Below, piece by piece: positions 4,991 to 26,505 of a stretch of 32,082 nt of DNA. The stretch comes from Clostridiaceae bacterium (GTDB lineage Bacteria > Bacillota > Clostridia > Saccharofermentanales > DTU023), in assembly GCA_012839385.1 (NCBI GenBank), contig DUNL01000218.1, positions 1 through 32,082 on the forward strand, written 5' to 3'. The first letter of the stretch is position 1. Every line of letters starts with the position of its first letter. The notes under the pieces were generated by a model. That model did not search any database, had not been told where the DNA came from, and saw only the letters and a program-made list of their open reading frames with translations. The position numbers and the translations under genes were made by a program.

Positions 4991-5062
4991 TGACCGTATC
5001 GTGGTAAAAATCTATGATTAATAGCAGTTTATTTTTTACGAACGCTACTGAAAGTCAGCCGG

Positions 5063-5713
5063 ATGATAGAGAAATTGGAACAAATCCTCACAGCTCGCGA
5101 ACAGAGAGCGGACCGGATTAGACGAGCTCAGCTCGCTTACCCCGGGCACTATATAATTTCCTTGAAATTAAATATCCCGGGACCGGACAAAGTTACTACC
5201 GCTTCAATTGCTCTGCTTAAAATCGCCATGGAGCTACTGGAGTGTAGCTTGCTTGGTACTGATCTCCAAATCAGATACCGTAAAAGTACCAGTTCGGCTG
5301 CCGGTCCGGAAGCGATCTACGCGCTACTGTACTGCCCACAAGATGGGCGAGAGACGACAGATACTACCCCAGCTTCAGCAACTGCGCGATCCGAAGTGGA
5401 TTTTGTCAACAACGCGGTAGCTAATTCTCTGGCCTCAAAGGAACATAACTACCCTTCTAGCCTTCGTCAAAAAATTAAACTCTTGTTGGTAAAGATTGAG
5501 GAGACTGATCCTCTGGGGCGATTGTTCGATTTTGATCTCTGGTATGAGGGAAAACAGATTAAACGTTCTGAGCTGGGCCTCCCCGCGAGAAGATGTCTGA
5601 TCTGTTCAGATTTCGCTATCATCTGCAGCAAAGAACAAAGGCATACTTTACGGGAATTACAGTTAAAGATTGATGCTTTATTAAGGGCTGATCCCCGCAT
5701 AAAACTAGAGTAG
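5063..5713 (+). CDS. citX: CitX-like apo-(citrate/citramalate) lyase phosphoribosyl-dephospho-CoA transferase
   Basis: C-terminal block TDPLGRLFDFDLWYEGKQIKRSELGLPARRCLICSDFAIICSKEQRHTLRELQLKIDALL matches the remembered CitX pattern HPLGRLWDIDV...LPPRRCLLC...C...H. N-terminal LTAREQRADRIRRAQ resembles CitX LLVSRDERQARQ. Confidence 0.87.
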   Translation: MIEKLEQILTAREQRADRIRRAQLAYPGHYIISLKLNIPGPDKVTTASIALLKIAMELLECSLLGTDLQIRYRKSTSSAAGPEAIYALLYCPQDGRETTDTTPASATARSEVDFVNNAVANSLASKEHNYPSSLRQKIKLLLVKIEETDPLGRLFDFDLWYEGKQIKRSELGLPARRCLICSDFAIICSKEQRHTLRELQLKIDALLRADPRIKLE

Positions 5714-5836
5714 CATGCATTCTTAATCTGTGATTATGTATTTGTCGGCTGATCTTGTAACGCATGTTTAGAAACAGTAACTGTATTTTCTGTACCGGAT
5801 TTTATGCCATAATTAATGAAATCGTGAGGTGGAATT

Positions 5837-6403
5837 GTGAGCTTTATTGAACTGTTACTGCTAGCTCTTGCTTTGTCGGTTGACGCTATGGTGGCGGCAA
5901 CCACAATCGGGCTATGCAAAGCAGACCTTAAGCTAAGAGACGGTCTTCGCACTGCCACCTATTTTGGTTCTTTTCAAGCTCTGATGCCTTTGTTAGGCTA
6001 TCTTCTAGGTTCCCAATTCAAGAAATATGTTCAGCCCTTTGACCATTGGATCATTTTTTCCTTGTTGCTTGTTATTGGTGGCAAAATGATTTGGGAAGCC
6101 AGAACTATAGAAGATAACACTTGTAACACGGACCCTTGCTCCCACCCTCGACTCTTCATGTTAGCCATAGCTACTTCCCTTGACGCTATGGCTGCCGGCA
6201 TCTCACTATCACTGACCCAAGCCTCCATGCCACGCTCAATCCTGACCATTGGCCTCGTAACTTTCTTGCTTTCTTTCGCCGGGATAATGTGGGGCAAGCT
6301 CTTAGGCAGACGTTTCCGCGGTATTGCTTCGATTGTGGGCGGATTAGTCCTGATCCTGATCGGCGTTAAGGTTGTAGTAGAACATATAGTGCGTAGAATT
6401 TAA
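5837..6403 (+). CDS. mntP: MntP-like putative manganese efflux pump
   Basis: GTG start with an AGGTGG RBS. Six-TM-like protein with two duplicated motifs, LALSVDAMVAATTIGL and AIATSLDAMAAGISLSL, as in MntP/DUF204 proteins. Confidence 0.85.
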   Translation: MSFIELLLLALALSVDAMVAATTIGLCKADLKLRDGLRTATYFGSFQALMPLLGYLLGSQFKKYVQPFDHWIIFSLLLVIGGKMIWEARTIEDNTCNTDPCSHPRLFMLAIATSLDAMAAGISLSLTQASMPRSILTIGLVTFLLSFAGIMWGKLLGRRFRGIASIVGGLVLILIGVKVVVEHIVRRI

Positions 6404-11580: not shown

Positions 11581-12501
11581 CTATGCGTCTATTTTGATCC
11601 GTGGATCAATGATTGTGTACAGAATATCTACAATAAAAACGATCACGATCAACATCGCTGAGTAAAAAACTGTGAAACCCATTATGGCTGTATAGTCACG
11701 GTTGGTAATACTCTGGACAAAAAAACGGCCCATACCGGGTAAAGCAAAAATCTTTTCCACAACAAAAGAACCCATTAACAAGCCGGCAAACAGGGGCCCG
11801 ATTACCGTGATTACAGGAATGATGGCATTGCGCATGCCATGAACACCGATAGTCCTGCTTTCGGATAAACCCTTAACACGGGCTGTACGTATATAGTCGG
11901 AACGTAAAATATCCAGCAGGCTTGAGCGCATGAGCCGGGTAACATAGGCAAGGGAATAACCCGAAAGAGCCAGAGTCGGAAGAACATAACCCTTTAACGT
12001 CTCCACGCCAAAAGTTGGAAACCAACCTAACTTAAAGGCCAGAAAGTACAATAATAGTGTAGCTACCACAAAAGAAGGGATTGTCACGCCGAAAGTAGTA
12101 AAAAAAGAAATAAGAGTATCCTGCCACTTGCCTCGCTTCATGGCGGAAAAGATTCCCAGGGGAATTCCCACAGCCAAAACAAAAAGCATAGAAAAAATTC
12201 CTAGCGAGGCCGAAATAGGAAAGCCCTTAGCAATAAGATCATTGACACTCATACCTTCATATTTGAAAGAAGGCCCCAAATCAAATTTAGCTACTCCCTT
12301 AAGATATTCAAAAAACTGTACCGGCAAAGGATCATCAAGCTTATATTTAGCGTCAATCGCGGCTTGAATCTCTGCCGGCAATCGCTTGCCGGCGCTATAA
12401 GGTCCGCCCGGGATAGAGTGCATAATGATAAAAGTGAGCAAAAGTACAAAGAATAAGGTTAGTACCATAATGCCAATTCGTTTGATAATATACTTTGCCA
12501 T
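11581..12501 (-). CDS. oppB: Oligopeptide ABC transporter permease OppB
   Basis: MAKYIIKRIGIMVLTLFFVLLLTFIIMHSIPGGP start and YIRTARVKGLSESRTIGVHGMRNAIIPVITVIGP motif. Confidence 0.93.
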   Translation of the reverse strand: MAKYIIKRIGIMVLTLFFVLLLTFIIMHSIPGGPYSAGKRLPAEIQAAIDAKYKLDDPLPVQFFEYLKGVAKFDLGPSFKYEGMSVNDLIAKGFPISASLGIFSMLFVLAVGIPLGIFSAMKRGKWQDTLISFFTTFGVTIPSFVVATLLLYFLAFKLGWFPTFGVETLKGYVLPTLALSGYSLAYVTRLMRSSLLDILRSDYIRTARVKGLSESRTIGVHGMRNAIIPVITVIGPLFAGLLMGSFVVEKIFALPGMGRFFVQSITNRDYTAIMGFTVFYSAMLIVIVFIVDILYTIIDPRIKIDA

Positions 12502-12663
12502 AAAAGTACTAATTCCTTTCAGTTTATTATGTAATTAAACAAATATCTTCTCTCAATGTTTATATTAATTATCATTTTTAACTAACCATGCGCAATATTA
12601 ACATATTATTAACAATTTATCTACCTTAAAATAGAATCATAAATTGAGGATTTTGGAACAAGA

Positions 12664-13596
12664 TCAGTCCCAGAGAGAAAGTGAAAATTTGGTTACCGTC
12701 AGCAGGTCAGCCGCGCCGCCCGGGCTTAAATTTCTGTTTGTGAAATCAAGGTCCATTGCATATAGCGCTTTTTCCCAGTTTGCACCTTGAGCATCATTCC
12801 TCAGATAGGAAATAGCTCTGGTTCTGGCATAATTCAGTCCTTCAATGCCACCACGTTTTATTAAAGTCGTGTCATCAGCCTTAGCGAGCAAAGTCATCAG
12901 ATAATCCAGGGCAAGTTTTCTATCCTCGAGCAAGTCAACTTTTCCTTGGTTAACAGCATCTTTTTGAAAAGCGTGAATCTCCAAGAGATTAAGACCATAG
13001 CGAGTTATCGTGGGAAAACCGGCGCTAACCTCAGCTCTGATACCGCCTATCCGATGTCGATGAAAGCTAATCTCGCCCGCTGTTTTAATGTCCTGATCTT
13101 TCATACCAGTCAGATCACTTGCTATCAGATCACCACTTATTATGGGCACGGAAGACAAGAGTTTAGATGAAAGCGACAAACGGTGTAACTCAGAGGTTGC
13201 CTGTTCTTTCTCAATTTTCATATAGGCCGCGGTTGCCAAAACCATAGCCAGACTGAAATGAGCTCCCTTATGCGTATTCCTGCCCCCGGTAGTAGCTAAC
13301 ATTTTTTCTTCCGCTTCTAAACCAAGACGACGGACGCTCCATAAGATTTTGTTCAAAGGCACGCTGGCTCCTATTAGCCAATATTGAGCGAAATATGGCT
13401 CCAACACTTCAGCGCTCCTATAGAACATTTCGATAGTCATATCAGGGTGAGAACCCACATTGTGGCGGTCAACAAGACCGGGTTTGGGAGTGAGATTAAC
13501 TTCAAATAACAGAGCCGCCTTGGCTAGAGCGGCCGCCCGGTGAGCTTTTTCCCACAATTTATTATTTTCTGTTGTGCTATTTTCAGTTGGGGTCAT
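12664..13596 (-). CDS. citG: Triphosphoribosyl-dephospho-CoA synthase (CitG)
   Basis: LLFEVNLTPKPGLVDRHNVGSHPDM and TGGRNTHKGAHFSLAM are CitG-type motifs. Adjacent to citC/F/E/D. Confidence 0.9.
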   Translation of the reverse strand: MTPTENSTTENNKLWEKAHRAAALAKAALLFEVNLTPKPGLVDRHNVGSHPDMTIEMFYRSAEVLEPYFAQYWLIGASVPLNKILWSVRRLGLEAEEKMLATTGGRNTHKGAHFSLAMVLATAAYMKIEKEQATSELHRLSLSSKLLSSVPIISGDLIASDLTGMKDQDIKTAGEISFHRHRIGGIRAEVSAGFPTITRYGLNLLEIHAFQKDAVNQGKVDLLEDRKLALDYLMTLLAKADDTTLIKRGGIEGLNYARTRAISYLRNDAQGANWEKALYAMDLDFTNRNLSPGGAADLLTVTKFSLSLWD

Positions 13597-13637
13597 TTTT
13601 ATCTATTTAGCTCTACTCGTGAAAATATCTTGGTAGA

Positions 13638-14816
13638 TCAATTCATATTAGAGGTAATTTCGCGGTGTTCGCGCAAATAAGCTAGAGTCGCCGGCGGTAC
13701 CAGATCCGCTAACAGTTGCCACTTTTCATTCGCGTAGGCTTTCCTGACTCTAGCCGCAGATATAGGACGACCATCCGGGGACTCGACTCTAGGGACAATT
13801 ACCAATCCCAATTCTCCGCTGAACACTTCCCGCATCACATTATTATATAATTCGGTGGTGCGACTAAGAGGCTCTGTGCCCAGATATCGCCTTCGAATAG
13901 AAAGGGCGGGAGCGACATGGTGCATAAATATTCTGGCATCCAATTCCGCTTGCAGGCCAGTCACTTCTTCCACATCTTCTAGGAAATAGGACGGAAAAGT
14001 AGCTGAGCTGACAAGATAAGGACCGGTAGGATGAACTATTAAATTGGGGATATGCGCCGTAGCCTCCTCCACCAGGAAAAATCTGTCTGCCGCCGGGAAA
14101 AGGGAACGATCTTCAGATAGAACAAAAAGATGAACCAGACTTGACTCCTTAGCGGCAAGTTCGGCTAAATAGAGATGCCCCAAAGTAAAGGGATTAGCGT
14201 GCATTACCAAAGCGGAGATGCTGTCATCAGGCAGCGGGCCTGAGTCAGATGCTTCCACGCGCTCATAAAATCCGGCGTTAAGCTCAGACAGCTCGCCAGA
14301 CTCCGAGCGCGCGAGAAAAAGACTTGTCCTCTGTCTAAGATAATTCAGATAAGCTGTAATGCCACCGCTAGACCCCGCTTTTTCCATGAAAACCAACTTA
14401 TGGTCAACGAAATCCAAGGTTTCAAAGCCATGCCAGGCAAAGGCCTGGGCGCTGATAGCGGAAGTATAAACAAAGACACTATCCCAACCAGGAACCAGAT
14501 ATATATCCACTAATTCTTCGGCGCCGAAATCAATACGCCTTTTAAGCTCGGACATTACTTCGGCTTGATAGTCTTTTACTGATCGCAACAGACGGGCAAC
14601 AATCTGATCAAAGGCTTTTCCTACCTGAAACTCAGGTGCCACCGCCACACATTTAAGAATATTGTTTTGCCTAGATCCGGTAGCTACCAGTTGCTGATCT
14701 ACAAACAAGCCCCAGGTTTCATCCACCTGCTCCGAGCGAATGCCCGCTCGCGACAAAAGATCCAACCATTGTTGCTTGACCGGGGCGGAATCAAGATCGA
14801 GCTTTTGCGTATACAT
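13638..14816 (-). CDS. citC: [Citrate (pro-3S)-lyase] ligase (CitC), acetate:ACP ligase
   Basis: N-terminal acetyltransferase-like segment followed by a nucleotidyltransferase motif (ALVMHANPFTLGHLYLAELAA) and ISAARVRK. Within the cit block. Confidence 0.9.
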   Translation of the reverse strand: MYTQKLDLDSAPVKQQWLDLLSRAGIRSEQVDETWGLFVDQQLVATGSRQNNILKCVAVAPEFQVGKAFDQIVARLLRSVKDYQAEVMSELKRRIDFGAEELVDIYLVPGWDSVFVYTSAISAQAFAWHGFETLDFVDHKLVFMEKAGSSGGITAYLNYLRQRTSLFLARSESGELSELNAGFYERVEASDSGPLPDDSISALVMHANPFTLGHLYLAELAAKESSLVHLFVLSEDRSLFPAADRFFLVEEATAHIPNLIVHPTGPYLVSSATFPSYFLEDVEEVTGLQAELDARIFMHHVAPALSIRRRYLGTEPLSRTTELYNNVMREVFSGELGLVIVPRVESPDGRPISAARVRKAYANEKWQLLADLVPPATLAYLREHREITSNMN

Positions 14817-14819
14817 GCT

Positions 14820-16226
14820 TTAGTTCACCTGTCGGATCAGATCGATGGTGTCACCGTCCCGATACCTTACTTCGGCAACGATACGGCCATCATGTTCCAG
14901 GTCTTTCGGCGTGCCACATATCTTCTCAGCTAGTTGTCGCAATTCGTCTATGGAGCTAATCTTCAGTCCGGCTTGTCGCAGACGTGTGGCCAGCTCTGTT
15001 TGACGCGGATTTACCGCTACGCCATATTGAGTAACCAACATATCCACTGTAGAGCCGGGAGTAGAAATAGTATGTACCCGGTCTACGATCAAAGGCAATC
15101 TGGCACGCGTCAAAGGCGCGATAATAATCGCTAACTTAGCGCCCGCGGCCGTATCGCTATGCCCACCGGAACCACCCATAATCAAGCCTTGGGAATTAGT
15201 ATGGACATTGACATTAAAGTCAGTATCAATTTCAGTCGCGCCCAAGATTACAACATCCAGACTATCGACAACAGCGCTGGCCGCCGTCGGGCTGGCATAA
15301 TGAGCGGCGGAAATCTCCCTATGAGCCGGATTGTCTCTGATTGATCGCGCCGCGTCCAGATCAAAACACTGAACATCTAAAAGAGTCTCAAAGTAGCCCC
15401 AACTGTGCATTTCTACCAACTTTGAAGTTATGCCTCCGGAGGCAAAGCTACCTTGTATTTTCTGACGCTCCATTATCTTTTCCAGAGCATAAGCCACAGC
15501 CAATGAAGCTCCGCCCGCGCCGGTCTGAAAGGAAAATCCGTCCCGCAATAATCCTGAGGCCTCGATAGCTGCCGCTGCCATATCAGCCATCAACAGACCC
15601 ACCGGATCCCTGGTAATCCTGGTTGTACCGGAAACAATACCGGACGGGTCACCAATCTGCTCAACAGCGACCACATAATCAACTTCCGTCTCAGCGATCG
15701 AAAAATCCGCCAAAGGATAGGGCACAAGATTATCCGTGATGGCCACCACCTTATCAGCATAGCGGGCATCAGAAAAAGCATAGCCAAGGGAGCCACAAGC
15801 TGACTGGCCGTATTTGCCGCTGAGATTACCACAAATATCCGCTGTCGGTGCCGCGACGAAGGCGACATCAATATGCGCCGTACCTCTTTCTAAATCCGCC
15901 GGTCTGCCCCCATGACTGCGAAAAACTACAGGCCGTTCTAACAGTCCTCGGGAAAGAGCTCGCCCAACTAAGGCGCCGCAATAATTGCATTCCAGACCCG
16001 TCACGGTACCATCCCTGATCAGATCTAGAAGCGGCAGATGGCAGTCAAAAATCGCGCTGGCATTGATTGTCAGATCCTTCAGACCTAGCTTTCTAGCCGC
16101 CGCCAGCACCATATTCAAGACATAATCGCCATTTCTAAGATGATGATGAAAAGATAAGGTCATCCCATCCTTAAGCTCCAGTAACTGTAAAGCTTCACTG
16201 AGTGATTCTAATACCTTTGATTTCAT
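14820..16226 (-). CDS. citF: Citrate-lyase-type alpha subunit (CitF); probably citramalate lyase alpha, acyl-ACP transferase
   Basis: KDGMTLSFHHHLRNGDYVLNMVLAAA, FRSHGGRPADLERGTAHIDVAFVAAPTAD and GGSGGHSDTAAGAKL are CitF-typical. ATGA overlap with citE. Confidence 0.92.
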   Translation of the reverse strand: MKSKVLESLSEALQLLELKDGMTLSFHHHLRNGDYVLNMVLAAARKLGLKDLTINASAIFDCHLPLLDLIRDGTVTGLECNYCGALVGRALSRGLLERPVVFRSHGGRPADLERGTAHIDVAFVAAPTADICGNLSGKYGQSACGSLGYAFSDARYADKVVAITDNLVPYPLADFSIAETEVDYVVAVEQIGDPSGIVSGTTRITRDPVGLLMADMAAAAIEASGLLRDGFSFQTGAGGASLAVAYALEKIMERQKIQGSFASGGITSKLVEMHSWGYFETLLDVQCFDLDAARSIRDNPAHREISAAHYASPTAASAVVDSLDVVILGATEIDTDFNVNVHTNSQGLIMGGSGGHSDTAAGAKLAIIIAPLTRARLPLIVDRVHTISTPGSTVDMLVTQYGVAVNPRQTELATRLRQAGLKISSIDELRQLAEKICGTPKDLEHDGRIVAEVRYRDGDTIDLIRQVN

Positions 16227-17107
16227 TTTATTGACCTTTCATCATCTACCAGCAGTCCCAGTTCTCTAGCTTCAGTAAGAACCTGGCGGGCGCGAGCGGC
16301 AATCGGAGCGTCGATCATCTTACCATGTAACGAGACAGCTCCTTTTCCCGCGCGCTTACCTGCTTCCAAAGCTGCCATGACTTCAAGCGCGTAGGTAATC
16401 GCTTCCGGCCGGGGACTGAAAACTTCATTAATAGCTTGGAGATGACGTGGTGAAATAGCCGCTTTGCCGGAAAAACCAAGGCCGCGAGCCAGAGTGGCAT
16501 CATCAACAAGCCCCTCATCATCTTGTACATCCGTAAAAGGCGTATCAATAGCATCTATTCCAGCTGCCCTGGCAGCCATAACCAAACGCGATCTGCTGTA
16601 GAATATTTCCCGGCCCTGTTTAGTGCGTAGGCAGCGCAGATCTGCCGCTAGATCCTCCGCTCCTAGAAAAAGAGCCACAACTCTTTCTGAAGCGGTCGCG
16701 ATATCATAGGCTTGTTCAATACCTAGAGCAGTTTCTATAAGAGGAATTATTCGGGTAGAACCTACTTCTATACCGTGTAGCTTCTCCAAGTCGGTTAGAG
16801 CGGAAGAAACCTGTCTAACCGTTTCAACGCAACTCTTAGCTGACATTATTACATCAGGCGCGCGAGGAATTACAGTCTCCAAGTCCTGGCGCCAATGGTC
16901 ACTATCAAGGGGATTAATACGTATAATAATTTCCTGTGAGTAATCGATGGAGCTTAAGGCGGAAGACACAAGCAATCTGGCAGCATCTTTTTGGTCCGGG
17001 GCGACAGCATCTTCTAAGTCCATAATTAAACAGTCCGCAGGCAAAACCGCTCCATTTTGGAGCATAACAGGACTGTTACCCGGCAAGAACAAAAGTGATC
17101 TTCTCAT
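16223..17107 (-). CDS. citE: Citrate-lyase-type beta subunit (CitE); probably citramalyl-ACP lyase
   Basis: HpcH/HpaI fold start RRSLLFLPGNSPVMLQNGAVLPADCLIMDLEDAVAPDQKDAAR; IPLIETALGIEQAYDIA; LGAEDLAADL. Confidence 0.92.
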   Translation of the reverse strand: MRRSLLFLPGNSPVMLQNGAVLPADCLIMDLEDAVAPDQKDAARLLVSSALSSIDYSQEIIIRINPLDSDHWRQDLETVIPRAPDVIMSAKSCVETVRQVSSALTDLEKLHGIEVGSTRIIPLIETALGIEQAYDIATASERVVALFLGAEDLAADLRCLRTKQGREIFYSRSRLVMAARAAGIDAIDTPFTDVQDDEGLVDDATLARGLGFSGKAAISPRHLQAINEVFSPRPEAITYALEVMAALEAGKRAGKGAVSLHGKMIDAPIAARARQVLTEARELGLLVDDERSIK

Positions 17108-17108
17108 T

Positions 17109-17378
17109 TCAGTCCTCCTGCTTGGCCGCGCGCCTGACAGCAGTTTCCAAACGAGCGCGAATAGTGCAGTCCAAAGCGCCCTGATCCTGTAATTTTATCA
17201 CACCCGTCTCAACCTTCAAACGCGCTAAAACCTCTCGGCAGGTTGCCTCGATCTTGTCTCCATACTGGGCCAGAACCGGGGACTCTATTTCCAGACTAAG
17301 GGTTTCGGCAGGATATACGGTTACCAAAACATCACTGGATTCCAGTGTTCCCGAACTGGCTTCACGCAAAATTTTCAT
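17109..17378 (-). CDS. citD: Citrate-lyase-type gamma subunit, acyl carrier protein (CitD)
   Basis: 89 aa; SSGTLESSDVLVTVYP around the prosthetic-group Ser and GALDCTIRARLETAVRRA C-terminus match CitD. Confidence 0.93.
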   Translation of the reverse strand: MKILREASSGTLESSDVLVTVYPAETLSLEIESPVLAQYGDKIEATCREVLARLKVETGVIKLQDQGALDCTIRARLETAVRRAAKQED

Positions 17379-17401
17379 TAATTACCTCTTTAAAGATACG
17401 A

Positions 17402-18331
17402 TTAACCCGGTAAAGTAAGCTGATTCAACTCACTTAACTTAAACTCATGATCAACAGCTACCAGGCCCACCATCATATAGCGTCCTGTAATGGAATCACG
17501 GATAAACTCGTGATATAGCTTAAAATTCTCGATTTCTCCCGTAGATTCGACATGCATTCTCGGGCCGGTACAGAAATGCCTTTGATCGCCTATTAGTATA
17601 TGGGTATCATCCACATACGATACCGGCAGATCTTCCGCTATTAAATCCTTAACTTTTTCTTCGAGCTCACGCAAATCAATCTCCGGTTTTTCATCAAAGG
17701 AAAGAATGAAGCCGTGCCGAACCTCAGCATGTTCGTAGCGATATACCCGATAGTCCGACAAAGAATAGGCTACTAAATCTTCCGCTGTATGGGTCATCCT
17801 GCGGTAGGGAATAGATTTATAGACAATTTTTTTCACATGGTCCGGTTCCGGCCCGAAAATATTAGGACGAGTAACAATAATCTCCTCCCCCAGACCCAAC
17901 ATCAGATGAGCGTTTCTGCCCAGATAAGGATAGATAAGATCGAAATGCTCTACAATTACGCGTTTTTTACGGTCAACCGCCTCGTTGATCGCGCTGGCCA
18001 ACTCATGCATCTGGTAAAAAGCGGATTCAAAGCGAATATCTAAATGGTAAGTGTGGGGGCTAAAAAAGCCTGTATCATCTAAATCCATAATAGGCAACGG
18101 TCTTACATTTACCCCCTCATCATCATTAGTCAACTCTAAACCCGGAAACATACCTTTAATCAAAATACTTTTACCGGAGCCACTATCACCTACCAGTCCA
18201 ATTAAAAGATCAAAAGGACTTAAATACTGCTGAGCGATCTGCATGCCCTGATCTGCCAGACGCGGCATACCGCGTGGAGATAATAAGACACTGTAAAGAT
18301 GATTTTTCTGCATACGGGCCGAATAAGACAT
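17402..18331 (-). CDS. P-loop NTPase fused to an AlaRS/AlaX editing-like (second additional domain) region; uncharacterised
   Basis: Walker A GLVGDSGSGKS (residues ~46-55). The C-terminal half aligns by eye to the AlaRS editing domain: HTAEDLVAYSL vs HTATHLLHAAL; FDEKPEIDLRELEEKVKDLIAEDLPV; FCTGPRMHVESTGEIENFKLYHE vs LCGGTHVxxTGEIGxFKIxxE. Confidence 0.75.
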   Translation of the reverse strand: MSYSARMQKNHLYSVLLSPRGMPRLADQGMQIAQQYLSPFDLLIGLVGDSGSGKSILIKGMFPGLELTNDDEGVNVRPLPIMDLDDTGFFSPHTYHLDIRFESAFYQMHELASAINEAVDRKKRVIVEHFDLIYPYLGRNAHLMLGLGEEIIVTRPNIFGPEPDHVKKIVYKSIPYRRMTHTAEDLVAYSLSDYRVYRYEHAEVRHGFILSFDEKPEIDLRELEEKVKDLIAEDLPVSYVDDTHILIGDQRHFCTGPRMHVESTGEIENFKLYHEFIRDSITGRYMMVGLVAVDHEFKLSELNQLTLPG

Positions 18332-18377
18332 AGCGCGGCTCCTTTCATCGTTTATGGAATTATTCTAGCATAGTAAT

Positions 18378-19625
18378 CTAACGAACCCCCGACTTGCGTA
18401 GGGCAATTATCCTTTGCATCTCGTTATAGGCGATCATGATCGCCTCATCAACGCCCATTCCCGGCTTAGCTAGTATCTGATCAGCCTGAACCGCCATAGC
18501 GACCTGGACACAGATCATGGTAGATCTATCTGTCTCATTACAAGTTCCACCCTGATAGGCGCCGATACCTTTCTCCTTACAGTAGAGAATCGCTTCTATG
18601 GTGTGGTTTAGACCACCCAAGTCAGGAGTTTTAACCTGAATAATATGTCCGGCTTTAGCGTCAGCGAAAGCCATAACATCCTCAACTGTATTGCACCATT
18701 CGTCAGCCACTAACTCTACTGACAAGCCTCTCTTGTCAACTTCCGCGGTCAGTTCTGATAAGCATTTGATCTGAGAATCGCGATCTCCGGCGTCAATGGG
18801 ACCCTCGATTCTAAGCTTAAACGGCTTGACGATTTCTTCCAGCTCAGCTAAATAATCGGCTATACGGGAAATATTATGTACGCCGAAGGCCAAACCTATA
18901 GTACCGTAAACATCGATTTGGATAATCGGTTGATAGCTTTCCTCCGGTCGGATCTCTCTGATACGCTTAACTAACCAATGCAAATATTCCGCCAAAAGCT
19001 CACCTTCTCTGCCTAGCTTAGTCTCTACATTGTTGATCAGAGCATGCGGCAGAACGGGAACACCCTTAATAATCATTTTGTCGGCATTGTTGTAGCGGTC
19101 ATCCCCTGATTGGGTAAAGATCGGAATCAGCTCATCGGCAACGTTCAAACCATACTCTTCCGCGATAACATCGCACATCAACTTATTATTCTTAAGTCCT
19201 ACGGCATGGAGCAGAACCTGACTTACTCCATAGCGGATCGCCGTATGAAGCTTCTTACCATTAACTCTGATATCATCCAGTTCCGCGGCCATTTCCCGAA
19301 AAGTCGTAATTTCTCTGCCTTCAAAATGGGGAGCGACATATTTGTCAATTACCGGGATGTATTCAGATGAGAGAAAGAGCGGATCCCTGCCACCGGCGCC
19401 GGAATACTGCACCGCGGCGCAATCTGCCCAGGCAATTTGATTATCTTCCAATTGCAACATCACCGAAATTGATTCACCGGGTTGGCGCACCGAGGTAAAA
19501 CCCGGCGTTACAGGTTCACCAATATAGCGAGCTCCATCAGCGACAGCTCCCTGCCTGATAGCAAGCTGATCATCAAAGTAGAATCCTGTTAAACCGGGGG
19601 CGCAAACCATTTTTTTAATTTTCAT
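18378..19625 (-). CDS. mal: Methylaspartate ammonia-lyase
   Basis: APGLTGFYFDDQLAIRQGA, AAVQYSGAGGRDPLFLSSEYIPVI, LVADEWCNTVEDVMAFADAKAGHIIQVKTPDLGG, YQGGTCNETDRS and LAKPGMGVDEA closely match the known Clostridium MAL pattern. Confidence 0.95.
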   Translation of the reverse strand: MKIKKMVCAPGLTGFYFDDQLAIRQGAVADGARYIGEPVTPGFTSVRQPGESISVMLQLEDNQIAWADCAAVQYSGAGGRDPLFLSSEYIPVIDKYVAPHFEGREITTFREMAAELDDIRVNGKKLHTAIRYGVSQVLLHAVGLKNNKLMCDVIAEEYGLNVADELIPIFTQSGDDRYNNADKMIIKGVPVLPHALINNVETKLGREGELLAEYLHWLVKRIREIRPEESYQPIIQIDVYGTIGLAFGVHNISRIADYLAELEEIVKPFKLRIEGPIDAGDRDSQIKCLSELTAEVDKRGLSVELVADEWCNTVEDVMAFADAKAGHIIQVKTPDLGGLNHTIEAILYCKEKGIGAYQGGTCNETDRSTMICVQVAMAVQADQILAKPGMGVDEAIMIAYNEMQRIIALRKSGVR

Positions 19626-19666
19626 TCTCTTCTCCTTAAGAAAAATATTATAGAATTTTATAGTAA

Positions 19667-21118
19667 TCAGCGCGGGCGGCCTACCAGTCGCCCTTTACTG
19701 ATAGCATAAACATCATCAATGACCATCTGGAACGAGGCTTGTCTATTTTCATAATTTGCCCTCTCTTCCAGTTTCTGTTTGTGGAAATCAAGCAACTCCG
19801 GTGGTAAAGGAACATTACCGGGATGGAAAAGTCTAATACAACCCTCGTTGTCTCTGGCCGGCAACATCTTGCCGGCGTTAAAACGGCTGGGAGCAAAGGG
19901 AATGTCTAAGACACCGGCTTCAAAAGCCCTGATTGTGCCTTGGGCGACATCGCCTTCTCCAAGCTCCAGCACTTTTTCCAATACCGCTCTGGTTTCCGCC
20001 GCGATAATAACTTTTTCGTCTTTCAAGCTATAGGTGTTCAAGCTTTGCTCACCCAACATAGAAATCAGTTGTCTCGTCGTGCGTAGACCGGCCGCGTTTG
20101 CCTCCTTGGTAGGAACGCCCATCGCCTCATGAGGTGTCTTTACAATAACCTTGGTGGCGTGAGACAAGGCCGCTACCGAGCTACCCCAGGCAATAACGGC
20201 GTAGGCTTTAGCCTCATCTTGAGGAAAACCGCCCATCCATTGGTGCAGTACTGTTGTTACATTGACATCTCCATAACCGAAACGGCGCAGATACTCATCG
20301 GTCAAGGATTGTAGAGTTTGAATCGCGGCTACGTCCTGCACTAAATTACCACATTGTCCGTAGCCGACAGTAATATTGCGTACCCCCTGCTCAGCGGCCA
20401 ATAAGCTTTCGATCACAGCGATCGCGTGAGAAATAAAGGGTGGAACCAGGGTTCCGGTCAAAGGACCATATGGTTCACGATTAATCGGGCAACCGGCTTC
20501 TTCATATAATCCGGTCAATCTATCTACATATTGCCAATCTCTTATTGTCGTCTCTAAAGGCACCGACTTGGCATAGGGTATATTATAGGAGATACTCCCT
20601 CCTTCGTAACTGGTAAAGCCTCCGGCATAGGATATTTCCGTCAGCAGTCTGGCGTCCGGAGTCCCGTGCCGGATTTGCACCGGGATATCGAGACTATCAA
20701 TAATTTGTCGGCAGCCGAACACACCATGATTTACGGCCGGAAAGCCATTTAACATTGACTTGTTCTCACGCACTGACTCTTCAATACCTATTTCTGCTTC
20801 TTTGTACCTGTTCTGGCGCGTATAGCTGTCAATAGTTGTCGGAAGCAGATCCGCCTCACCTTCTTCCTGCAGATAAGTTAATAGTTTAATATGCTGAGGT
20901 ATTAAAGCCACGCCTGCTCGCGGTTGGATCAATGTCGTGCCTTCTTCTTTCGCCTGATTCAATTTATGACTAAAAACTTTCCCGGCGGACAGAGATTGAT
21001 GGTAGGCTACTGCCTCATTGAAGTCAACATCACGACCGGTAGGCCATTGAGAAAGAACCTCATTTTGGACGGCGCTGAATTCGTCCATACTAAGCTTTTG
21101 TGCTGTAAGATTACTCAT
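19667..21118 (-). CDS. glmE: Methylaspartate (glutamate) mutase epsilon subunit
   Basis: 483 aa; [64 protein letters not shown] is typical of GlmE/MutE. Between mutL and mal. Confidence 0.94.
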
Positions 21119-22487
21119 TAAGTAACTCCTTTTTCATAATTCTTATTGCCGTCTCCGGACATCTTTCCGATAGTACGCCCATCGCTGAAAGAATATATTT
21201 TTTATCTATTAAGAAATCAGCTCGTTCCGGTCTTAATATCCCGGCTTCTTGAGGATCATAGAGGGAAAATTTTAAAATATCCGCGAGTTTGCGCGCGTAA
21301 ATTAAAGCCCCCCCGGTGAGTACTATTTTTCTGACAGATCTCAGATCCTTACCTGTTTGAGCGTAAGCAGCTCCCAGCGGAGTATAGAATTCCTCCAGTC
21401 TACCCACATGTCTGCCGCTGGCGATTTTTATGGCCATGCTGGCAAGAGCATAATCCAGGGCTTCCATTTCGTCAGTATTCGGTAAGAGCGCGGGATTCTC
21501 CTGACAAGCTGAACTCCAGTATTCTATACGATCAACGCTAAGTCCGGACAGCTCTGCCAATTTATTTAAACCCGCCTCCTCAACTATTCCCGAGAGCCCG
21601 TACCTCATACCTAAATCCCCTTCCACTGTCCTTTTAGCATATGGTTCCGGCAAACCTTTAACTATTGTTGTGGAAGACAAAGGGAAACCATTAGCGATAG
21701 AATAAATATCCGTCGTAGCGCCACCTAAATCAATGGCCATCAATTCACCGATACCATCTTCTTTTTCTGTGCCTTCCGCCAGGACAATCATCGCTTTAAG
21801 CATTGCTTGCGGAGTAGGCATCATAATTCCGGATATTAGGCCTTCTATTTTTGACAAACCCTTAGCTTTGATAATTCTGGCCAGAAACAGATCACGAATC
21901 TTCTCTTGTACGGGCCCAACATTGATGGCGCCAAGCCTAGGCATTACATTAGGGCAAACAGTAATATCATAATCACGCAGGATCTTTCGGGCTTCATCGG
22001 CAGCAGTCCGATTCCCCGCGTAAACTATGGGACATTTTAACTTGGTCTCAGCTAGTCGTCTGGCATTATAGAGAATAACTTTCCGGTTGCCGCCATCAGT
22101 TCCTCCGGTCAAAAGAAAAATCTCCGGATCTATGGCCATAATGTCTTTTAAATCACTTTCAGTTAACTCATGAGAAAACACTTTAACTACTTTAGCGCCC
22201 GCTCCCAGAGCGGCACTTTTTGCCGCTTCAGCTGTTAGTTCGGGCATGAGTCCTGATACTACCATCCTTAAGCCACCGGCAGCAGATGAACAGGCCATCT
22301 GATCTGTAAATTCAATATTACCTATTCGTTTTTCCAATTTCTCCCGAGCCAAAGTAAGTCCGTCATTGATATCGGTGGCGACAGTAGTGTAGGCGGTAGA
22401 ATTACCAAGTACAATCGCTTGGTCCAGATCAACCGCGGTCAATTTAGTATAGGTACTGCCAAAATCGATCAGGAGAACAGCCTTCAT
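21111..22487 (-). CDS. mutL: MutL/GlmL, ASKHA-family protein associated with glutamate mutase (probable reactivase)
   Basis: [47 protein letters not shown] overlap with the S subunit. Not DNA mismatch-repair MutL. Confidence 0.93.
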
Positions 22488-22963
22488 GTCAACTCCTCTC
22501 TCTTGGCATTTTGCGCTTCAATAAGTTTTCCGGCTTCTTTCTCGGAGCTTGTAAGAATTCCCAGATCTTTTTTTAAATAATAAATGTCTACATCAGGGGG
22601 AGTCCCCGGAGCAAAAACACGATCGAAACCCATCTTCTTGAACCTTTTCTCAACTTCTGAGAAGGGCTGTTTACCAACAACTATATTACCACCTACGTAC
22701 ATTAAAATGCCTTCCAGGCCGGCCTCATCCGCTTTGTCTCTCATGCCTCTGACATCTAATTCACCATGACCATAGAGAGAAGATATTAAAATAGCGTCGG
22801 CAGCAGTCTCTATTGCGGCGGCAATAAATTCTTCCTGTGAAACCATTACACCTAAATTAGTGACTTCAAAGCCTGCTTCACGGAAAGCGTATTCCAGAAT
22901 CCTGATACCAACCGCATGCACATCCGCTCCGATTACTCCAATAACTAAATGCTTCTTGTCCAT
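22484..22963 (-). CDS. glmS: Methylaspartate (glutamate) mutase S (sigma) subunit, B12-binding
   Basis: B12-binding motif GADVHAVG (DxHxxG), SSLYGHGE and YVGGNIVVG. Adjacent to mutL/glmE. Confidence 0.94.
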
Positions 22964-22972
22964 CTTGATCCC

Positions 22973-23980
22973 CTATCTGCGCTTCAGTTTTTGTTTAGCT
23001 TCTTTATAGATAGCTGCCGAGGCTTCCGAAATATATAACCATGACCCGCGATCAACACGTAGATCATAGCGTAGAAGCTTAACATGCTCATGTGTAGCGG
23101 CCCTTAGTCTCTCTTCTTCTCTACGCGATATAAATTCAGTACAATGAGTTGGTACCAGCACCAGCTCTTGCCTCATGAGGAAATTAGTAAAATCTTCAGA
23201 ATCAGTAAGAAGAAATTTTTCTATCTCTGTATTCAGGCTGGCATAGTGTGAGAAATCCTCAACCATCCTGTCGAGAAATGTATGGCTAAAACTGAGTATA
23301 CCTACTTGTGCCTGAGAAGGTATACTACTTAGTTCGGTGACAGTAACAGGGGACAGAGTAAGCGCGAGCTGCATAACGGGTATTTTGCCTCTGACCATCT
23401 GTTCTAACTCAGCTTTGTTTTTTTCTTCACAGACCACGAGATCAAAATCCGCGGCCAATCTAAAGGGTTGTTCTCGTAAATCGGAGAGTAGAAAACGAAC
23501 GAAATCTACATTCGGGATATTAGCCAGGCTGTTAAGCATCACCGACCTTAATTCAGGTGATTCACCTACAATCGCGATACATACATTCCTGAATCTTTCT
23601 TCCTGTTGTCGCATTCTTAACTCCAAGAAAATTTGGATCTCCCGCAAAGAAAAATCAAGTTCCAGGAGGCTTTGTATCATATTATCTATAGCCTCCAGAG
23701 CCTGCTCTTTCCTGCTCCTTTGTTCGCCAACAGCAACTGTGGCGACATAGGTACCGCTACCTTGAATCATCTCAATCTGACCGGAATCTGCCAGCAATTG
23801 ATAGGCATGATTAGCCGTGCCGATTGAAACCTGCTTTTCTCTGGCAAATTCCCTAATAGTAGGAAGTTGTGTTCCAGCCTGAAGCTCACCGGCTTTGATC
23901 TGTCCCGAGACCTCTAAGGCCAACCTCTGGTAGAGAGGTATTTCCATATTATGTTCTGTGATAGCGGATTCAGGATTCAT
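22973..23980 (-). CDS. GntR-family transcriptional regulator with unassigned ~230-aa C-terminal domain
   Basis: N-terminal winged HTH: IPLYQRLALEVSGQIKAGELQAGTQLPTIREFAREKQVSIGTANHAYQLLADSGQIEMIQGSGTYV. The C-terminal region is not an aminotransferase domain. Confidence 0.88.
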   Translation of the reverse strand: MNPESAITEHNMEIPLYQRLALEVSGQIKAGELQAGTQLPTIREFAREKQVSIGTANHAYQLLADSGQIEMIQGSGTYVATVAVGEQRSRKEQALEAIDNMIQSLLELDFSLREIQIFLELRMRQQEERFRNVCIAIVGESPELRSVMLNSLANIPNVDFVRFLLSDLREQPFRLAADFDLVVCEEKNKAELEQMVRGKIPVMQLALTLSPVTVTELSSIPSQAQVGILSFSHTFLDRMVEDFSHYASLNTEIEKFLLTDSEDFTNFLMRQELVLVPTHCTEFISRREEERLRAATHEHVKLLRYDLRVDRGSWLYISEASAAIYKEAKQKLKRR

Positions 23981-23982
23981 TA

Positions 23983-24546
23983 CTATTTTTCACCCTGTTG
24001 TTGTAAATACTCATCCGGTCCCAGCAAATACAAGTCCCTACCTTCAGAGTCAACAGCTACAAATAAAGGGAATTCTTTAACTTCAAGCCTCCTCAACGCT
24101 TCTGTACCTAGATCTTCATAGGCAATCACTTCCGAAGCGATTACCCGTTGAGAAAGCAGAGCTCCCGCGCCACCAACAGCGGCAAAGTAAACCGCTCCAT
24201 TTTTCTTGATAGACGCGACAACTTCTTCACTGCGCGAGCCTTTGCCGATCATTCCTTTTAACCCGTTTTCGAGTAATATTGGCGTATATGGGTCCATCCG
24301 ATATGAAGTGGTTGGTCCCGCAGCGCCAATAACCTGGCCTGGCCGCGGCGGTGTTGGACCCACATAAAATAGCACCGCTCCTGATAATTCAAACGGCAAC
24401 TCTTCCCCTTTACTTATCGTTTCGACAAGGCGTTTATGTCCCGCGTCCCTGGAGGTATAAACTGTTCCGCTAAGTAGAACCCTGTCTCCTGCTTTCAAAG
24501 ACCGCGCTACAGCTTCCGTCAGAGGAGTATTAATCCGTTTTTCCAT
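23983..24546 (-). CDS. Class I fumarase-type hydratase beta subunit; probably mesaconase beta
   Basis: LKAGDRVLLSGTVYTSRDAGHKRLVE, YVGPTPPRPGQVIGAAGPTTSYRMD and GMIGKG are typical of Fumerase_C. Adjacent to the alpha subunit. Confidence 0.92.
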   Translation of the reverse strand: MEKRINTPLTEAVARSLKAGDRVLLSGTVYTSRDAGHKRLVETISKGEELPFELSGAVLFYVGPTPPRPGQVIGAAGPTTSYRMDPYTPILLENGLKGMIGKGSRSEEVVASIKKNGAVYFAAVGGAGALLSQRVIASEVIAYEDLGTEALRRLEVKEFPLFVAVDSEGRDLYLLGPDEYLQQQGEK

Positions 24547-24549
24547 TAT

Positions 24550-25389
24550 TTATAAAACCTCCTCAGCATGTCTCGTGGCATGACAGTTAATATTGACTGC
24601 TACCGGTAGCCCGGCAATATGTGTCGGCAAAGTCTCAATTGCCACTCCTATTGAAGTTGTACGTCCGCCTAATCCCATTGGCCCCAGTCCTGACTCATTA
24701 ATGAGGTTAAGCAATTCTCGTTCTAAGTTCGCGTAATAGGGATCAGGATGACTTTGCCCTAACGGCCGCATGAGTGCCAGCTTAGAAATATAAGCGGCTT
24801 TATCAAAGTTGCCACCGATACCGATACCTACCACTACAGGCGGACAAGGATTGGGACCTGCCTCGCGCACAACCTTCAGAACAAATTGTTTAACGCCTTC
24901 GACACCATCAGCAGGTCTGAGCATGGTAAGCTGGCTCATATTCTCACTGCCAAAGCCTTTGATAGCCAGACGCAATTCAACTTTATCTCCAGGCGCTAGT
25001 TCGGTATAGATCATAGCCGGGGTATTGTCAGCGGTGTTAACTCGCCGCAAAGGATCGCTGACAATCGATTTGCGTAGATAATTTCGCACATAAGCTTGAC
25101 GCACACCTTCTTGAATAGCTTCATAAGGGTCGCCCATAAAATGAACATCCAAGCCCACTTTCAAGAAAACAATAACCATACCGGTATCTTGACAGATAGG
25201 AATAGCTTCACTACGAGCCAGAGCAGCATTTTCCAAAATATCAGACAGGATGGCCTGAGCCGTTATACCATCTTCTCTCGCTCTGGCGGCTTCTAGATGT
25301 GATTGTACGTCCGGAGGCAAAAAAATACAGCTCTCATAAGCCATTTTGCTTACAGCTGCTGTCAGTATTTGCACGTCAAATTCTCGCAT
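24550..25389 (-). CDS. Class I fumarase-type hydratase alpha subunit; probably mesaconase alpha
   Basis: ILENAALARSEAIPICQDTGMVIVF, PADGVEGVKQFVLKVVREAGPNPCPPVVVGIGIGGNFDKAA and LGPMGLGGRTTSIGVAIETLPTHIAGLPVAVNINCHATRH are typical of Fumerase. Confidence 0.93.
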   Translation of the reverse strand: MREFDVQILTAAVSKMAYESCIFLPPDVQSHLEAARAREDGITAQAILSDILENAALARSEAIPICQDTGMVIVFLKVGLDVHFMGDPYEAIQEGVRQAYVRNYLRKSIVSDPLRRVNTADNTPAMIYTELAPGDKVELRLAIKGFGSENMSQLTMLRPADGVEGVKQFVLKVVREAGPNPCPPVVVGIGIGGNFDKAAYISKLALMRPLGQSHPDPYYANLERELLNLINESGLGPMGLGGRTTSIGVAIETLPTHIAGLPVAVNINCHATRHAEEVL

Positions 25390-25408
25390 AATCTCACCAC
25401 TAATTTAT

Positions 25409-25447
25409 ATGTACTATTACAATACATCAGAATGATCTACATTTCAA
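25409..25447 (-). promoter_or_regulatory. Candidate promoter and overlapping palindromic operator for the methylaspartate-pathway operon
   Basis: Minus strand: TTGAAA (25447-25442), 17 nt, TATTGT (25424-25419). Imperfect palindrome ATGTACTATTACAATACAT (25409-25427, 7 of 9 pairs) overlaps the -10. Confidence 0.45.
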
Positions 25448-25611
25448 TTGCAACAATTCGGATTTCGCTTGTCTTAATTTTTCTTTTACCCTGTTGAAAT
25501 CGGATTAAGACAAAGTGACATACCATCCACTTAGAGATAGAATGATCCTATCTTCGTGAAATGTAAGTAAGGAAAGTTACCATGACAAACGCGTCTATTG
25601 GAGTACAGTGA

Positions 25612-26469
25612 ATGCGCATGAAAAACAGAGTAAGATCAACACAAAGAGGCATGAAAAGTTTTTTATTTAGGTTTTTCATAACCTTGCTTATATTAGCCTT
25701 GCTTGGCCTCTTCGCTTGGCGTTTTAATCTGGACTCTCTCAAGGTAACTACCTTGAAACTATCTGATCCCAGGATCAAAGACGAAATAACTTTTGTGCAG
25801 ATATCTGACTTGCATGCCAAAAGCTTTGGCCAAGATAATCAAAGGTTAATCAAGAAGATTCGTCAGCAAGCTCCGGACGCTATCTTCGTTACCGGTGATC
25901 TTTTCAGCAATGCCGATTTGGGCGGTCGTGAGACTGCTACCAAATTGATGAAAGCTTTAGCGGCAGATAAAGCGCCTGTGTATTATGTTACCGGAGAACA
26001 TGATTACAACGAAGATTTCCATGCTCAACTTTCAGCGTTCGGTATCAATATTCTCGCGTTTAATGGCGATATATTGCGCTATGGCGATACCGAGATAGAG
26101 CTCTACGGCATCAACTCTGTTTACTTTTGGGACAGCTATAATTTAGCCAATGCGGTTGAAGCTGATCCCGCTTTGTTTAGTATCCTCTTAGCGCATGTAC
26201 CAAACTGGCCTCAGTACCAAGATGCCGGTTTCGACCTCGTCTTGTCAGGAGATTCACACGGCGGTCAGATTCGTCTGCCTTTTGTGGGGGCTTTATGGTT
26301 GAAAGAATGGTTCCCCGAACTAAAGAAAAAAGATGTGTATATTAAGGGTCTCTACGAAAAGGATGGGAAATATCTGTTTGTCAGCAGTGGATTAGGTACT
26401 ATAGCCCCTCACTTGCGTTTCTACAACCGGCCCGAGATCGTGGTCATTAAGCTTACTCCGGCTCGGTAG
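25612..26469 (+). CDS. Membrane-anchored YkuE-like metallophosphoesterase
   Basis: N-terminal TM, then ISDLHAKSFG, FVTGDLF, YYVTGEHDY, LLAHVPNW, LSGDSHGGQIRLP, FVSSGLGT: calcineurin-like phosphoesterase motif order. Confidence 0.88.
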   Translation: MRMKNRVRSTQRGMKSFLFRFFITLLILALLGLFAWRFNLDSLKVTTLKLSDPRIKDEITFVQISDLHAKSFGQDNQRLIKKIRQQAPDAIFVTGDLFSNADLGGRETATKLMKALAADKAPVYYVTGEHDYNEDFHAQLSAFGINILAFNGDILRYGDTEIELYGINSVYFWDSYNLANAVEADPALFSILLAHVPNWPQYQDAGFDLVLSGDSHGGQIRLPFVGALWLKEWFPELKKKDVYIKGLYEKDGKYLFVSSGLGTIAPHLRFYNRPEIVVIKLTPAR

Positions 26470-26477
26470 CTATAAAA

Positions 26478-26505
26478 AGGCGGGTAACTTATATTTGACC
26501 CGCCT
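26478..26505 (-). terminator. Terminator of the second opp operon, convergent with the phosphoesterase
   Basis: AGGCGGGT (26478-26485) pairs with ACCCGCCT (26498-26505). On the minus strand it is followed by TTTTTATA. Confidence 0.85.

Follow-up and report, generated by a model that had tools for sequence, protein, structure and literature searches.

A conserved protein with a TsaE-like and an editing-like domain accompanies GlmE in glutamate-fermentation gene clusters

Gene clusters of the methylaspartate pathway were mapped by Kronen and Berg, whose cluster section includes murI, hgdBC and a DUF1446 gene downstream of mal (PMC4682846). That section and the figure legends make no mention of a protein like the one described here, which we call protein X. 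TsaE (YjeE in E. coli) is an ATPase whose hydrolysis has been seen only with partner proteins, and E108 of YjeE coordinates Mg/ADP (PMC4330362). Among editing proteins, CtdA removes canavanine from canavanyl-tRNA(Arg) in canavanine-exposed bacteria (PMC10018355).

The window analysed here is a 32,082-nucleotide stretch of contig DUNL01000218.1 from a Clostridiaceae bacterium. The original prediction, made from the sequence alone, placed protein X in a glutamate-fermentation cluster, and Pfam and NCBIfam matches bore this out. The operon around protein X encodes the full methylaspartate pathway: fumAB, gntR, glmSLE, mal, protein X and citDEFCG. The neighbours of protein X were annotated as follows.

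24550..25389, minus strand, class I fumarase N-terminal subunit, probable mesaconase (PF05681)
23983..24546, minus strand, class I fumarase C-terminal subunit, probable mesaconase (PF05683)
22973..23980, minus strand, GntR-family regulator (PF00392)
22484..22963, minus strand, GlmS, B12-binding subunit (TIGR01501, 204 bits)
21111..22487, minus strand, GlmL (MutL) accessory protein (NF040745, 605 bits)
19667..21118, minus strand, GlmE, methylaspartate mutase subunit E (TIGR01503, 764 bits)
18378..19625, minus strand, methylaspartate ammonia-lyase, mal (TIGR01502, 576 bits)
17109..17378, minus strand, CitD, acyl carrier protein of citrate/citramalate lyase (TIGR01608)
16223..17107, minus strand, CitE-like lyase subunit (PF03328; CitE TIGR01588 below cut-off)
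14820..16226, minus strand, CitF (TIGR01584, 611 bits)
13638..14816, minus strand, CitC-like lyase ligase (PF08218)
12664..13596, minus strand, CitG-like triphosphoribosyl-dephospho-CoA synthase (PF01874)

CitX (PF03802), which is needed for the prosthetic group of the lyase, is encoded on the opposite strand (window 5063-5713, plus strand), about 7 kb from the other citramalate-lyase genes. The Rfam scan of window positions 12000-26500 gave no match.

Upstream, 46 bp separate the gene of protein X from mal; downstream, 23 bp separate it from citD. Its features are given below.

17402..18331, minus strand, protein X ORF, 309 aa, ATG start
17846..18331, minus strand, N-domain, TsaE-like P-loop NTPase, residues 1-162 (TsaE profile-profile alignment and Foldseek)
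18167..18190, minus strand, Walker A GDSGSGKS, residues 48-55 (K54 and S55 invariant in 65/65 members)
18038..18049, minus strand, YHLD, residues 95-98, equivalent to the TsaE YHxD motif (profile alignment, consensus)
17945..17950, minus strand, E128-H129 at the TsaE IEW position, E108 and W109 in E. coli YjeE (profile alignment, consensus)
17405..17845, minus strand, C-domain, tRNA_SAD/AlaX-like fold, residues 163-309 (AlphaFold, Foldseek, hhalign)
17777..17791, minus strand, HTAED, residues 181-185 (first His of HxxxH kept, second His replaced by Asp/Glu)
17552..17572, minus strand, CTGPRMH, residues 254-260 (ThrRS-like CxGP..H with a two-residue insertion)

The original prediction had quoted GDSGSGKS, HTAED and a cysteine block, and these were located at residues 48-55, 181-185 and 253-267 exactly as quoted, the last reading FCTGPRMHVESTGEI. 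Its two-domain build, a P-loop domain joined to an AlaRS/AlaX-editing-like domain, was upheld by AlphaFold, Foldseek, profiles and family-wide motifs. The altered ligand residues that it pointed out (HTAED, and C-TGPRM-H with a two-residue insertion) were confirmed as well, and both changes are family-wide.

Protein X was found in 74 of the 399 sampled genomes of the window's phylum, and full-length homologues showed 47–94% identity. In Peptoclostridium acidaminophilum (WP_025436946) it has citC on one side and citX on the other. In a second phylum it occurs in Prevotella nigrescens (WP_004367803), flanked by DUF4387 and by fumarase genes. Both of these copies are annotated as 'hypothetical protein', and not under the name that the original prediction gave, 'alanine-tRNA synthetase second additional domain-containing protein'. 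Residues K54, S55, D71, D98, E128, H129, H181 and E184 were invariant in 65/65 aligned members. C254, G256 and P257 were identical in all 64 members having a residue there, position 185 was D or E in every aligned member, and R258 and H260 were each kept in 63/64. Given this family-wide conservation, the motifs of protein X are not chance matches. The Prevotella copy has Gln for H260 and Phe for H201, which shows that a four-ligand metal site is not universal in the family.

Protein X is duplicated in tandem in L079 and L091 (family f53), with motifs intact in both copies except Lys for Arg258 in one. At L116, around 5040-6029, the frame diverges from the family past about residue 114, which may reflect an assembly error or a pseudogene. 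Genome G149 encodes the TsaE-like half alone (165 aa; L117:9493-9990, plus strand), with a GlmE homologue on one side and RNase PH on the other.

No entry covering the family was found in Pfam, NCBIfam or the PDB, and no NCBIfam model fitted the window's protein X. The PDB sequence search returned Walker A matches and weak ThrRS/EF-1beta matches and nothing else, and no relative was encoded among the viral contigs. The literature search, which covered open-access papers and not subscription journals, found none on the family; TsaE and AlaX were mentioned together there in an unrelated context. Domain-level database annotation of members may exist, and the family is perhaps known as a sequence and not by function.

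The N-domain had been predicted to be a P-loop NTPase. The Walker A motif agrees with this; the domain is, however, TsaE-like and not a generic P-loop, resembling the ATPase of the t6A pathway beyond Walker A. Pfam gave Walker A matches only for the N-domain of the window's protein. Across the family, PF02367 (TsaE) matched 47/52 members at E<0.1 (best E 3.6e-5), and the best scores of protein X in the genome scan were 20–25 bits, under the Pfam gathering score of 26.6 bits. Profile-profile alignment of the N-domain with TsaE gave a probability of 95.1 over 104 columns. The ABC-ATPase control reached a similar hhalign probability (95.5) but covered only 24 columns. Since the hhalign probability alone does not discriminate, the TsaE assignment, and with it the rejection of a generic P-loop, is based on coverage, motif order (GDxGxGKS, YHxD, E128) and Foldseek. 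Crossed controls, in which the domains of protein X were compared with the other domain's profiles, gave values of at most 1.5. In the Foldseek search of the PDB with the model of protein X, TsaE chains were the sole P-loop matches at E<1e-3, and Thermotoga TsaE matched with a probability of 1.00.

Protein X and TsaE share the domain length, the GDxGxGK[ST] Walker A, YHxD and the Glu of IEW, in the same order. They differ at the position of YjeE W109, which is His in 65/65 members of the X family, and at that of YjeE Y82 (switch II), which is variable in protein X and not Tyr in the members shown. Protein X also has NDD...RPLP where TsaE carries SPT, scores below the Pfam cut-off, and occurs in genomes that encode an ordinary TsaE as well. 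A separate true TsaE was present in 21/21 genomes checked, which makes a role of protein X in t6A synthesis with TsaB-TsaD unlikely.

The AlphaFold model of protein X, computed with 52 sequences, had a mean pLDDT of 89 and a pTM of 0.86, and a tRNA_SAD fold was present in its C-terminal half. Foldseek matched the model to AlaX and AlaRS editing domains of the PDB with a probability of 1.00; PLP-transaminase matches with a TM of about 0.2 were judged spurious. When the C-domain was folded alone (pLDDT 91), only AlaX/AlaRS-type structures were found below E=1e-3 (probability 1.00, TMq 0.57–0.64). Two of the C-domain's Foldseek matches (3rfn, 3rhu) are designed epitope scaffolds. The tRNA_SAD profile (PF07973) gave 15.8 bits on the window's protein against a gathering score of 24 bits. 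It matched 35/52 homologues at E<0.1 (best 2.1e-5), and two homologues passed the cut-off with 24.3 and 24.9 bits. The hhalign probabilities of the C-domain were 96.8 for ThrRS and 95.5 for AlaRS. Its cysteine block CTGPRMHVESTGEIENFKL was nearest by sequence to ThrRS CxGP--HVPSTG.I.AFKL, whereas the best solved matches by fold search were AlaX/AlaRS. The likeness to AlaRS proposed earlier holds for the editing-like fold and not for the cysteine motif, which is nearer to ThrRS CxGPHV than to AlaRS CGGTHV.

The C-domain has in common with the AlaX/AlaRS/ThrRS editing domains the fold, the helix with the first His and the CxGP..HV..TGEI..FKL block. It differs in the second His of HxxxH, which is Asp/Glu, in two additional residues between Cys and His, and in a shorter middle part. 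In place of the HxxxH and CxxxH ligand set, the family has H181xxx(D/E)185 and C254xxxxxH260 throughout. TGS-SAD-uridine-kinase-like proteins are fusions of a SAD domain and a P-loop kinase. They likewise join an editing-like SAD to a P-loop domain, but in reversed order (SAD first) and with another P-loop family. A 568-aa frame with both SAD and P-loop matches in genome G262 is a candidate fusion of this kind.

The homology of the C-domain to ThrRS/AlaRS/AlaX editing domains and the likeness of the N-domain to an ATPase of the tRNA t6A pathway are consistent with a trans-editing enzyme. Such an enzyme would clear mischarged tRNA of 3-methylaspartate or of some other non-protein amino acid that the pathway contains, and the TsaE-like domain would aid tRNA binding or release. 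CtdA provides a precedent as a standalone editing protein (PMC10018355). It would have only this logic against a non-protein amino acid in common with protein X; CtdA has a B3/4 fold and no sequence kinship to protein X, and is experimentally proven. We consider this main rival reading somewhat doubtful, as the family departs throughout from HxxxH at the second His and from CxxxH in its spacing. Furthermore, protein X occurs in ten genomes that lack both GlmS and mal, where 3-methylaspartate should not be made, and is missing from glutamate-mutase bacteria such as E. coli. RNase PH, encoded directly after protein X in 43/58 loci, would also speak for trans-editing, but the murI...rph neighbourhood described below accounts for this link. 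Net charge was uninformative as a sign of tRNA binding: the domains of protein X are mildly acidic, and so are ThrRS/AlaRS editing regions.

The SAD pocket is conserved, but the family has lost the canonical catalytic His, and Prevotella has Gln in place of H260. These features would also fit a protein with a free small molecule as its target or with a regulatory role in the pathway, namely a SAD-type amino-acid sensor with an ATPase domain relaying the signal. A GntR regulator is present in the X cluster in several families, in line with this. We find a sensor unlikely: H181, E184, C254 and P257 are invariant where aligned, fitting an active site over a loose sensor, and protein X carries no DNA-binding domain.

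GlmE was scored by PF06368, and co-occurrence was counted per genome in the 399 genomes. Both proteins were found in 71 genomes, protein X only in 3, GlmE only in 15 and neither in 310 (Fisher p about 1.7e-59, which overstates the case since related genomes are not independent). The frequency of GlmE was 71/74 in genomes with protein X and 15/325 in those without. The three X-only genomes showed a stop-containing remnant beside RNase PH with no GlmE in the genome (G063), a weak partial match (G074) and a genome completeness of 63% (G319). In L118, around 2025-2501, an X remnant with an in-frame stop adjoins RNase PH-RdgB-YfcE in a genome without GlmE. The methylaspartate-gene linkage anticipated by the original prediction was supported by strong co-occurrence in the genome-neighbourhood survey, but the constant partner is GlmE, since protein X persists without GlmS or mal. 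Records of E. coli, Salmonella, Rhizobium, Ensifer and Fusobacterium carry GlmE and no protein X, as do the 15 genomes of the phylum. The enterobacterial, rhizobial and Fusobacterium cases indicate that glutamate mutase does not in itself require protein X.

Protein X occurs in the same cluster across two phyla. In most loci, glmS-glmL-glmE-mal is followed by AtuA-DUF4387 and/or HGD-D/BadF/MBL and sometimes by fumAB, and X comes after these. The downstream branch varies: citDEF occurs in the window and P. acidaminophilum, and AtuA-DUF4387 or HGD-D/BadF/MBL in most others. Protein X is present with every branch and is therefore independent of which downstream set occurs. The AtuA-DUF4387 and HGD-D/BadF/MBL sets recur between mal and X (e.g., L056:6325-8012 and L067:7001-9551) and replace citDEF in most genomes.

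RNase PH-RdgB-YfcE directly follows X in 22/32 families, and in family f36 protein X evolves at about the rate of RNase PH. Both observations would suit a factor that works with RNase PH in translation or on RNA, with the fermentation genes as bystanders. This is very improbable, because protein X is essentially absent from GlmE-less genomes and lacks a neighbouring rph in the window's family, other families, P. acidaminophilum and Prevotella. In addition, murI (glutamate racemase) lies near the cluster start in 17 X loci, and the same murI-GlmE-...-rph frame was found without X in L122, L123, L124 and L132. The position next to RNase PH was accordingly no longer taken to prove a task in tRNA metabolism. 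Most simply, the cluster occupies a murI...rph neighbourhood and X is its final gene, which leaves RNase PH a weak functional clue.

Eleven X genomes (families f36, f47, f20 and f80) had a GlmE homologue and no GlmS over the family cut-off, and mal was absent in 10 of them, the exception being G170. GlmL/MutL-type proteins were encoded elsewhere in some of these genomes. Their GlmE proteins occupied at least three separate places on the GlmE tree. The key Arg/Glu motifs of GlmE, whose roles we take to be those in the Clostridium cochlearium enzyme, were kept in f47, lost in f36 and partly lost in f20 and f80. In f36, X lies 3–50 bp downstream of a GlmE without the arginine-claw motifs. The dN/dS values of the f36 pair L101/L110 were 0.07 for both protein X and RNase PH, and 0.26 for GlmE; many other pairs were saturated at silent sites, and protein identities gave the same pattern. 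Protein X is strongly constrained where 3-methylaspartate should not form. Its retention with GlmE in the absence of GlmS and mal indicates that its constant companion is GlmE and not methylaspartate. Orphan GlmE genes were also observed in genomes without recognisable GlmS (L122, L123 and L124 of f52, L132, L094 and L071), in the murI to RNase PH interval; their key motif arginines are mostly intact.

We propose, with a probability of roughly 35%, that protein X assists GlmE-type proteins as an ATP-dependent accessory factor, its SAD pocket recognising an amino-acid moiety. The TsaE-like domain would bind and slowly hydrolyse ATP, and the ATP cycle would switch protein X between a GlmE-bound and a free state, as TsaE does on TsaD-TsaB. 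The SAD domain would serve as a pocket for glutamate, 3-methylaspartate or a derivative, and protein X may thereby sense, protect or repair the loaded GlmE subunit. The domain folds, the conserved residues, the co-occurrence with GlmE and the place in the operon are observations, whereas we infer that protein X binds GlmE physically, hydrolyses ATP, recognises an amino acid and serves in repair or regulation. The 71/74 co-occurrence, the shared cluster in two phyla, the independence of the downstream branch, the retention without GlmS and the constraint in f36 argue for an accessory factor, as does the parallel of TsaE, whose ATP hydrolysis needs partner proteins to be seen (PMC4330362). Against it, the co-occurrence is in part due to inheritance of a single gene cluster from common ancestors, and protein X also persists with seemingly catalytically dead GlmE, where mutase repair makes little sense. 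The many bacteria having GlmE without protein X make it auxiliary at most, and GlmL is already presumed, in the cluster literature, to be the reactivation chaperone of the mutase (PMC4682846). It is also conceivable, although distinctly unlikely, that protein X joins with GlmE-type proteins in a two-component machine acting on an aminoacylated substrate, apart from glutamate-mutase catalysis. The TsaE-type ATPase and editing-type pocket would then act with the B12-mutase barrel, the mutase role being one use of GlmE, and this would explain protein X beside claw-less GlmE and without GlmS.

Protein X is widespread and apparently unstudied, and joins an ATP-binding domain to a domain like those used in tRNA-synthetase proofreading. 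Glutamate mutase is a classic B12 enzyme with a gene cluster thought to be understood, and GlmE is tracked over two phyla by a predicted ATPase that is conserved but unnamed and has an editing-like domain. The retention of this protein after the loss of GlmS and the ammonia-lyase suggests that GlmE has a partner, or a second function, that has so far escaped notice. Alternatively, amino-acid fermenters may depend on protein X for a tRNA quality-control step not described before.
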